A DNA stretch of 20,702 bases, taken from IMG/VR virus record IMGVR_UViG_3300025483_000090, positions 1 to 20,702 of that record, one strand, 5' to 3'. This stretch comes from a virus. The notes beneath the pieces were generated by a model. That model was not told the DNA's origin and searched no databases. It worked only from the letters and a program-made list of their open reading frames with translations. Below are positions 15,349-17,470 of the stretch, one piece after another (position 1 is the first letter of the stretch; the number at the start of each line of letters is the position of its first letter). The translations under genes and the position numbers were made by a program.

Positions 15349-15896
15349 AGAGAGTAGTATTTACTTGGGGTAGATTTAATCCTCCAACAATCGGTCACGA
15401 AAAACTTATTGAAAAAGTTGCATCGATTGCTGGTAGCGATGACTACTTCATATATCCTACTCACACTCATAAAAAACCTAAAGATCCATTGCCATCAGAT
15501 AAAAAAGTCGAATGGATGAAGATGATTTATCCCCAGCATGCGAGATATATAATTTATGATAGAGAAATAAATACCTTTATCAAACTGCTTCAAAAATTGC
15601 AAGTAGATTATGATGATGTAGTATGGGTTGCTGGATCTGATAGAGTTTCTTCTTATCAGGATCTTCTTAAAAAATATAATGGAACAGAGTTTTCATTTAG
15701 AAATGCAGAATGTGTATCTGCAGGTGAAAGAGATCCAGATGCTGATGGTGCTGCTGGTATGTCGGCTAGTAAAATGAGAGCAGCTGCAGAAAAAGTAGAG
15801 ACAAGTAAATTTATGAGCGGTATTCCAGATACATTATCTGTCAAACAAAAACTAGAACTAATGGAAGATGTACGTAATGGTATGGGGTTGAAATGA
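15345..15896 (+). CDS. Nucleotidylyltransferase, cytidylyl/NMN-adenylyltransferase-like
   Basis: 183 residues in a Rossmann-like HUP fold. The N-terminal VVFTWGRFNPPTIGHEKLI has the (H/T)xGH nucleotide-binding motif as TIGH (15-18). VWVAGSDR (about 94-100) is the second phosphate-binding strand, and MSASKMR (139-145) matches the ISxTxxR-type signature. These enzymes transfer AMP or CMP from a nucleoside triphosphate to a phosphate-bearing partner, with release of pyrophosphate. NMN adenylyltransferase (NAD synthesis) is a reasonable guess for a short single-domain protein, but substrate cannot be fixed by eye. It overlaps both neighbours by 4 nt. Confidence 0.85.
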   Translation: MKRVVFTWGRFNPPTIGHEKLIEKVASIAGSDDYFIYPTHTHKKPKDPLPSDKKVEWMKMIYPQHARYIIYDREINTFIKLLQKLQVDYDDVVWVAGSDRVSSYQDLLKKYNGTEFSFRNAECVSAGERDPDADGAAGMSASKMRAAAEKVETSKFMSGIPDTLSVKQKLELMEDVRNGMGLK

Positions 15897-16168
15897 AAAA
15901 CTTTAAAAAACTACGTGAAGAAGCACTGCGTCAGCAACACAGACACAGTGATGTTTTTGTGGAGGGTGATGTCATCATGTCTTCTATCACTGGCGAGAAA
16001 GGTACGATTCATCGTGCTGGTGTTAACTATGTCATTGCAATCACCGAGTCTGGAGACATGTTTCGTGCATGGATTAAGGATATCCGAGCAGTACAAGTAA
16101 CAGACGCTATAAATAAAGAGAGGAAAAGTAGTATTTTCAATAATGGAAAGGCAAAAACCAGTCAATAG
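15893..16168 (+). CDS. Small KOW/SH3-like phage protein
   Basis: 91 residues. After a basic helix (MKNFKKLREEALRQQ) comes a beta-rich core: FVEGDVIMSSITGEKGTIHRAGVNYVIAITESGDMFRAWIKDI, whose GDxV...GxxGxI...NYVI spacing resembles SH3-like/KOW barrels. I recognise related N-termini (MKNFKxxREE) in marine T4-like phages. Function is unknown. It overlaps the nucleotidylyltransferase gene by 4 nt and the next gene by 26 nt; the next gene's late promoter lies inside its 3' end. Confidence 0.65.
   Translation: MKNFKKLREEALRQQHRHSDVFVEGDVIMSSITGEKGTIHRAGVNYVIAITESGDMFRAWIKDIRAVQVTDAINKERKSSIFNNGKAKTSQ
16108..16115 (+). promoter_or_regulatory. T4-type late promoter (exact octamer)
   Basis: A perfect TATAAATA lies 27 bp before the ATG of the zinc-ribbon/EF-hand gene. 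Predicted start is near 16121. An AGAGG at 16118-16123 lies at the start site and is about 20 nt from the ATG, so it is probably not the ribosome site. Confidence 0.7.
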
Positions 16169-17348
16169 TGTGCAGCATAATGATGCCTTCTCCCAGGCAC
16201 TGATCGAATCTTATGGTAAATGGTTAGGCGGCGCTGGATTTGGTTGGCATCTTAATGAAGATGGTATTCCAACACCAGAGAAAAAAGATCTAGGAGCTCC
16301 TGGTCCTGCTGGTGGTACTGATGCATCTACTTCTATCCCTGACCTTGCTGGTAAGGAAAAGAAAGAGGATGATTTCTCAACTAAAGATCCTAAAACAAAC
16401 GCTGCTCCCCCTGATCCTGCTGCTAACCTGCGTACAGGTCAGGGTATGAAGTATTCTGTTGGAGCACAGATCAAAGATACTACTAAAGTTGTTGCTCGTG
16501 AAGAGACTGAAGGGAAAAAGAAGTGTCCCGAATGTGGTGGAAAAGGTTGCTCTCACTGTGGAGACACAGGAGTTCACAAAATGAAGAAGGAGGATGTTGA
16601 TATCCTCGATGAAAAGAAAGGTCTTTATGCCAACATCTTTGCTAAAAAGAAGCGCGGAGAAGCACCTGCAAAGAAAGGTAGTAAGGACTATCCTGCTGCT
16701 GATGCCTTCGCTAAATCTGCAAAGACTGCAAAGAAAGAAGAAGTATCGTTTGAGTTAGATGGCGAGACTTATATTTTCGAGAGAGAAGTAATCGAAGAAG
16801 GTAGTATGAAGGCAGCACGTAAGAACGTTGGTGCTTCTACTTGCTGGAAGGGTTACAAAGCATCCGGAACCAAGATGGAGGGTGGTAAGTCTGTTCCTAA
16901 CTGTGTCAAAGAATACTTTGAAAAGGATCCCAAGACAGGTAAGATGGTCAAGAAGCACAACTGTGCAAAGAAAGTTAAGAAAGAAGGTCTTGAGTATTCT
17001 GTAGTTTCTGGTGAGCATACTATGCTCGAAGATGGAACTGTAACTCACTACGATATTATGAGAGAGAATACGATTCTCCACAATGTTCCTGTCAACGAAC
17101 TTGAGATCATGATCAGTGAAGTTCATGAGCACGTTGTGAACGATGACAAGAACAGAGAAGTTCTTGGTGAAAAGAAACTTGATGCTGTAGGTAAAGCAGA
17201 TGCTGATATTGACAACGATGGTGATGTAGATAAGTCTGACAAGTATCTACATGCTCGTCGTAAAAAAGTTACTAAACTGATCAACACCAAGAAGAAAATG
17301 AAGGAGCAGGCAGAACTTCAGAAGGAGATTGAAGAAGAAAAAAAGTAA
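16143..17348 (+). CDS. Late protein with zinc-ribbon and EF-hand loop; zero-frame product
   Basis: 401 residues. Visible parts are: a DAFSQALIESYGKWLGGAGFGW entry; a Pro/Ala/Lys-rich low-complexity stretch (45-110); a DnaJ-type CxxCxGxG cluster, C128-PEC131-GGKGC136-SHC139-G, able to bind zinc; a SFELDGETYIFERE strand pair; four further cysteines in the STCWKGYKASG to HNCAKK region; and a textbook EF-hand/dockerin calcium loop, D355-I-D-N-D-G-D-V-D-K-S-D366. The C-terminus is a Lys/Glu helix. Structural or assembly roles are plausible given late control, but I do not recognise the family. The gene ends in A AAA AAG TAA, with signals for a -1 frameshift into a 41-residue extension. Confidence 0.8.
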   Translation: MERQKPVNSVQHNDAFSQALIESYGKWLGGAGFGWHLNEDGIPTPEKKDLGAPGPAGGTDASTSIPDLAGKEKKEDDFSTKDPKTNAAPPDPAANLRTGQGMKYSVGAQIKDTTKVVAREETEGKKKCPECGGKGCSHCGDTGVHKMKKEDVDILDEKKGLYANIFAKKKRGEAPAKKGSKDYPAADAFAKSAKTAKKEEVSFELDGETYIFEREVIEEGSMKAARKNVGASTCWKGYKASGTKMEGGKSVPNCVKEYFEKDPKTGKMVKKHNCAKKVKKEGLEYSVVSGEHTMLEDGTVTHYDIMRENTILHNVPVNELEIMISEVHEHVVNDDKNREVLGEKKLDAVGKADADIDNDGDVDKSDKYLHARRKKVTKLINTKKKMKEQAELQKEIEEEKK

Positions 17349-17394
17349 AGTCCGCGACCGTTCAAATTATGCCTGAAGTTGAAGACGGCGCGGA
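17321..17394 (+). promoter_or_regulatory. Probable programmed -1 ribosomal frameshift signal
   Basis: All parts of a dnaX-type cassette are present. An upstream Shine-Dalgarno-like AAGGAG lies at 17321-17326. The heptamer A AAA AAG, in the correct phase (17339-17345), is directly followed by the zero-frame TAA (17346-17348). After five spacer bases a stem begins: TCCGCG (17351-17356) pairs with CGCGGA (17389-17394), and, past one bulged A, CCGT (17358-17361) pairs with ACGG (17385-17388); TCAA/TTGA (17362-17365 with 17379-17382) can extend it. A AAA AAG is the most shift-prone heptamer known in bacteria. Confidence 0.72.
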
Positions 17395-17470
17395 AGATGC
17401 TACTACTAAAAAGAAGCATAAAAAATATGTTCTTAACACTATTGAAAAACAAAGATTGAAAGATAAATAA
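17345..17470 (+). CDS. -1 frame C-terminal extension of the 401-residue late protein
   Basis: After a -1 slip the frame reads GTA AAG TCC GCG and continues without a stop for 41 residues (VKSATVQIMPEVEDGAEDAT...VLNTIEKQRLKDK), giving a 442-residue fusion. Composition (Lys/Glu/Asp-rich, helical) resembles the preceding C-terminus. An independent gene could start at ATG 17369 (33 residues), but that ATG has no Shine-Dalgarno and lies in the loop of the predicted hairpin. A sequencing error in the seven-A run would also make the two frames continuous, so comparison with relatives is needed. Confidence 0.6.
   Translation, partial: VKSATVQIMPEVEDGAEDATTKKKHKKYVLNTIEKQRLKDK
17462..17469 (+). promoter_or_regulatory. 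T4-type late promoter before the 66-residue gene
   Basis: GATAAATA (7 of 8 matches to TATAAATA) overlaps the last codons of the frameshift extension, 25 bp before ATG 17495. Predicted start is near 17475. Confidence 0.5.

Follow-up and report, generated by a model that had tools for sequence, protein, structure and literature searches.

The window analyzed here is the whole 20.7-kb stretch of IMG/VR virus record IMGVR_UViG_3300025483_000090 (positions 1 to 20,702), and it carries T4-type replication genes. An ORF on its plus strand at 16143-17348, identified from the ORF list and by homologues, encodes a putative short product of 401 amino acids that matches the PHROG family phrog_4359 (E 2e-113). 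Upstream of this ORF are genes for the clamp, clamp loader, polymerase, UvsX and a helicase; downstream is a head-protein family, and the neighbours also include a cytidyltransferase. The original prediction described the product as a late protein, which this setting, with replication genes on one side and a head-protein family on the other, does not establish. The -1 reading frame past the end of the ORF matches a second family, phrog_11250. Both PHROG families are of unknown function, a Pfam search gave no match for the body or for the extension, and a PDB profile search returned nothing usable. An AlphaFold2 model of the 401-aa protein, built with 30 relatives, was too poor for use (mean pLDDT 45.8, pTM 0.22). 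Residues about 281-343 of this protein match genes of syn9, S-RIM2 and the ACG-2014 phages, several of them carrying a cytidyltransferase annotation; judging by these matches, the segment is possibly a shuffled module. A 91-aa gene at 15893-16168 has relatives annotated as the alpha or the small subunit of ribonucleotide reductase, but has no Pfam match, and the label is probably a misannotation carried along cyanophage records.

The 401-aa ORF terminates GAA AAA AAG TAA, and the elements around this junction all lie on the plus strand. The slippery heptamer A_AAA_AAG (17339-17345) is in the zero frame, in the X_XXY_YYZ register, and runs directly into the zero-frame stop TAA (17346-17348), which reads GTA in the -1 frame, so that no GTG start is available there. 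Entry into the -1 frame is bounded by a TGA in that frame just upstream of the heptamer (17330-17332). The -1 frame then stays open for 41 codons (17345-17467; VKSATVQIMPEVEDG...), identified by the PHROG match and by the selection test described below, and closes with TAA at 17468-17470, giving a predicted long product of 401+41 = 442 amino acids. Its first ATG (17369-17371) falls within a conserved motif. A stem-loop of -18 kcal/mol, with one bulged A, occupies 17351-17394 after a 5-nt spacer; its arms are TCCGCG (17351-17356) and CCGT (17358-17361) on one side, and ACGG (17385-17388) and CGCGGA (17389-17394) on the other, or, written out, TCCGCG-a-CCGT / ACGGCGCGGA. The zero-frame end, the GC-rich stem with its spacing and the 41-codon frame were thus found as the original prediction had placed them. 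A Shine-Dalgarno-like AAGGAG is also present upstream (17322-17327), but the gap to the heptamer is 11 nt and not the 12 nt that had been claimed.

We searched for this arrangement in other phages. By tblastn, 311 annotated phage records were matched, nearly all of them cyanophages. The nearest relative, S-CAM3 (81%), keeps GAA AAA AAG TGA, and its extension is annotated separately through a GTGA overlap; S-CAM1 likewise has GTGA at the junction and a separately annotated extension gene. In Syn1 the stop is TAA with GTA, and the annotated start of the extension lies further on. The same junction is found in S-PM2, S-RIM32, S-RIM44, S-H9-2, Sf-FR1, Sf-FP1 and Sf-CH11, and in P-HM2 the heptamer stands one codon ahead of the stop (AAA AAG CAA TAG), with the -1 frame again entering the motif. 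Scans of IMG/VR with three queries brought the total to 161 loci with 107 distinct junctions. Each of the 107 has an in-frame A_AAA_AAG 0-1 codon before the stop and then a -1 extension with a VEVMP-type motif, a figure of 107 of 107 that holds by construction, the set having been gathered by requiring heptamer and motif; this and the following counts are over related sequences and are not independent. The heptamer directly precedes the stop in 97 junctions and lies one codon earlier in 10, and the stops are divided among TAA (46), TGA (36) and TAG (25). The extensions range from about 30 to more than 200 codons, with a few shorter, and match DUF6321 or DUF3008 in some relatives. Many, including those of L013, L015 and L083, end with a module like APPGKKYERMVKHIKKNYPKDKEGIAYATAWKHKNK, labelled DUF6321 in Sf-CH11. 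A stretch similar to this module occurs in L113 before the junction, and a protein encoded at L144:2501-3940, with tandem GYQKGGMVK repeats, shares short modules with the frameshift gene family. Surveys made without this selection give the fairer picture, and outside the heptamer set they contain: 27 loci of an ATGA class, the fused L073 and L074, a rearranged L005, L113 with a broken frame, truncated contigs and non-homologues. The frame of L217 is broken as well, upstream of its heptamer.

A run of As is a typical site of sequencing error, and the junction might reflect such an error, a faulty assembly or a frameshift that arose recently by mutation in what is really one continuous gene. The comparison refutes this: the same junction recurs in independently sequenced isolates from several groups, which also supports the predicted dnaX-like -1 frameshift, and in 107 distinct sequences, and the -1 frame past it is under protein-level selection. 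We consider this the least probable of the explanations weighed here, and negligible.

The codon ahead of AAA AAG varies among the junctions (GAA 98, TCA 5, GGA 2, GCA 2, encoding E, S, G and A) and always ends in A. Lys-Lys pairs elsewhere in the same genes are written AAA AAG in 103 of 977 cases (10.5%). Among the other ORF ends in the collected loci, a single one of 629 distinct ends reads AAAAAAG-stop, and it belongs to the homologue L005. The same fusion product could arise by transcriptional slippage on the A run, through an extra A in some mRNAs, and the seven As found in the window and in 147 of the 161 loci would suit this. The other 14 loci, however, have only six As, which is short for known RNA polymerase slippage, and the run is always closed by AAG rather than AAA. 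A downstream RNA stem beyond codon constraint and an upstream Shine-Dalgarno-like element fit a ribosomal mechanism instead, and slippage of the polymerase appears highly improbable.

Over the 107 junctions, the 54 nt past the slip site fold with a minimum free energy of -16.8 kcal/mol, versus -9.7 kcal/mol when the -1 codons are replaced synonymously (z -2.64), whereas control regions further downstream and upstream give z values of -0.67 and -0.08. The fold ranks at or below 5% of the synonymous randomisations in 84 of 107 junctions; for the window the figure is 0.2%. This, together with the rarity of AAAAAAG-stop at other ORF ends, bears out the view that the elements are unlikely to have come together by chance. 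Dinucleotide shuffles agree over the junction set, and the stem-loop of the window was matched in 2 of 200 shuffles. In a gap-free alignment of 24 window-type sequences, 88% of the cells in the window's stem are paired and 26 changes are two-sided, the covarying exchanges being C-G/G-C and A-U/U-A/G-C. Its covariation score, 0.253, exceeds that of every version with slid partners (0.018-0.120), and RNAalifold independently finds an overlapping stem. Other subgroups have different stems at the same place. There is a downstream structure of the stimulatory type here beyond coding constraint.

The position profile of the upstream element is also conserved, with a GGAG or AGGA core within 24 nt of the heptamer in 93 of 107 junctions, mostly ending 11-12 nt before it. 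This core is found in each of the three codon phases and across different peptides, and is lacking in the L020-L029 group. When the upstream peptide is recoded with synonymous codons, an equally strong match arises 37% of the time, and we therefore regard the internal Shine-Dalgarno as a probable stimulatory element: its position is conserved, but its strength is only weakly above amino-acid constraint. The comparison across cyanophages that the original prediction had proposed finds heptamer, stem and -1 frame all conserved.

Selection was examined in the segment from the slip site to the M of the VMP motif, using 49 disjoint pairs. Before the first ATG, pN/pS is 0.405 in the -1 frame, versus 1.37 in the zero frame and 2.05 in the +1 frame. 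No ATG, GTG or TTG precedes the M of the motif in 46 of the 107 junctions, and within these the -1 frame still shows a pN/pS of 0.32 (18 pairs). Purifying selection thus acts on the extension as a -1-frame protein, even ahead of the first ATG, and where no start codon exists it does so beyond the reach of normal initiation. These values bear on the main competing reading, in which no frameshift occurs and a small independent protein is made from the extension, beginning at ATG 17369 (or, in relatives, at an earlier GTG or TTG) with translation coupled to the upstream stop. The extension is indeed annotated as a gene of its own in S-CAM3, S-CAM1, Syn1 and S-PM2, GTGA is present at 42 of the 161 heptamer loci, and 27 relatives start the extension at an ATGA overlap. 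However, the overlap in the window is GTA and not GTG, ATG 17369 splits the conserved VEVMP motif, and the heptamer is absent from the ATGA relatives, as it should be if these express the module by a different route. Initiation at ATG 17369, named in advance as an observation that would count against frameshifting, fails to explain selection upstream of it. Independent translation is accordingly improbable, if less so than transcriptional slippage.

Related phages appear to deliver the module in other ways. In L073 and L074 both parts are encoded in a single ORF, and L073 has no heptamer (SEKASKFVEVNPEIE). The virtual frameshift product of the window aligns with L073 across the junction (45% over 89 aa, E 4e-17), as does that of L189 (43%, E 4e-7). 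In the alternative ARRANGEMENTS, seen in S-RSM4, S-WAM2, S-H9-1, Sf-CH1b and contigs related to them, the stop overlaps an ATG that opens the module (aaATGA). This ATGA pair resembles the frameshift arrangement in having a related upstream gene and the extension module, also in the -1 relative frame, but differs in lacking the heptamer and in giving the module its own ATG. A separately encoded module of this kind (MKTFKQLREECGC...) is present in L084, L085, L086, L087 and several loci among L046-L078. The 27 relatives of this class are a minority lineage that expresses the extension from a gene of its own, so that not every relative depends on the fusion. In a tree of the neighbouring cytidyltransferase, with L094 as a control lacking the module, the heptamer and ATGA types do not form separate groups (8 changes, 3 forced), a weak result given long branches and likely gene exchange. 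In L005, a single-cell genome, the heptamer (1144-1150, with TAG) lies earlier in a rearranged gene with changed domain order, and 165 codons of open -1 frame lead from it into the same C-terminal module. Here the slip site seems to have changed its position inside the gene, although the single-cell assembly may be chimeric.

Synechococcus WH7803, the listed host of S-CAM1 and S-PM2, carries a single tRNA-Lys gene (UUU) among its 43 tRNA genes and no gene for a tRNA with CUU. Its genome contains two copies of GGCTGGATCACCTCC, the sequence usual at the 3' end of 16S rRNA. For E. coli dnaX, a noted feature is likewise a single tRNA-Lys whose pairing is better with AAA than with AAG (PMC5009743). 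The junction shares with dnaX the same A_AAA_AAG, a host with a sole tRNA-Lys (PMC5009743), a stem-loop about 5 nt downstream and a Shine-Dalgarno-like sequence 11 nt upstream; in dnaX, spacings of 8-11 nt stimulate (PMC6321510). It differs in that the gene is unrelated, the shift would lengthen the product, and the zero-frame stop comes right after the site, a reversed layout that has been described for dnaX of some other bacteria (PMC5009743).

The elements and their conservation, the selection acting on the -1 frame ahead of any start codon, the covariation of the stem and the single-ORF fusion in a relative all argue, as evidence from sequence, for a programmed -1 ribosomal frameshift of the E. 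coli dnaX type with predicted products of 401 and 442 amino acids, to which we assign a probability of roughly 0.93; the conserved and widespread signal is very probably functional. Most ribosomes would read GAA AAA AAG and stop at TAA, releasing the 401-aa protein. A fraction would pause at the downstream stem-loop, with the internal AAGGAG probably adding to the pause by pairing with 16S rRNA. On slipping back by one base, at whatever rate, both lysyl-tRNAs would re-pair on AAA AAA, and 41 more codons would be read to give the 442-aa protein with its conserved C-terminal module. The two forms may be needed in a ratio, but the claim that the signal sets a ratio of short to long protein is not supported by the sequence comparisons.

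As in lambda gpG/gpGT, the shift would occur near the end of a gene and give a C-terminally extended product. The gene families differ (phrog_4359/phrog_11250), however, and no tail-gene context is present, so the proposed analogy with tail-assembly frameshifts is not supported. A tail-assembly chaperone identity, which implies a pair of gpG/gpT homologues between the major tail protein and the tape measure, is not borne out: the neighbours are a cytidyltransferase and head-protein families, and the PHROGs of both parts are of unknown function. For the chaperones of T4-like phages, a route that does not involve frameshifting has been reported (Vladimirov 2022, as cited in PMC10885494). The neighbouring cytidyltransferase, T4-GC190, is present in the S-SM1 virion (PMC3037559), and the S-CREM2 virion contains a cytidylyltransferase and hypothetical ORFs with adjoining numbers (PMC10665884); a virion role for the frameshift gene product is a guess. 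We tentatively suggest, as one possibility and not the favoured expectation, that marine cyanomyoviruses deliver one conserved C-terminal module by three interchangeable routes, frameshift fusion, an ATGA-coupled gene and direct fusion, and that the frameshift form is a long-kept cassette that sets how much of a possibly virion-borne protein carries the extension.

No database record examined annotates a frameshift in this gene, and a literature search found no report of one, although most subscription journals lay outside the search and novelty is not proven. A functional signal would add an unannotated gene family, from heavily sequenced ocean viruses, to the known phage frameshifts outside tail-assembly chaperones, and would correct the annotation of two genes that are partly one. 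The junctions would also form a naturally occurring set of slip sites on which the rules of dnaX could be tested with cyanobacterial ribosomes, within a family whose sister lineages appear to meet the same need without frameshifting.
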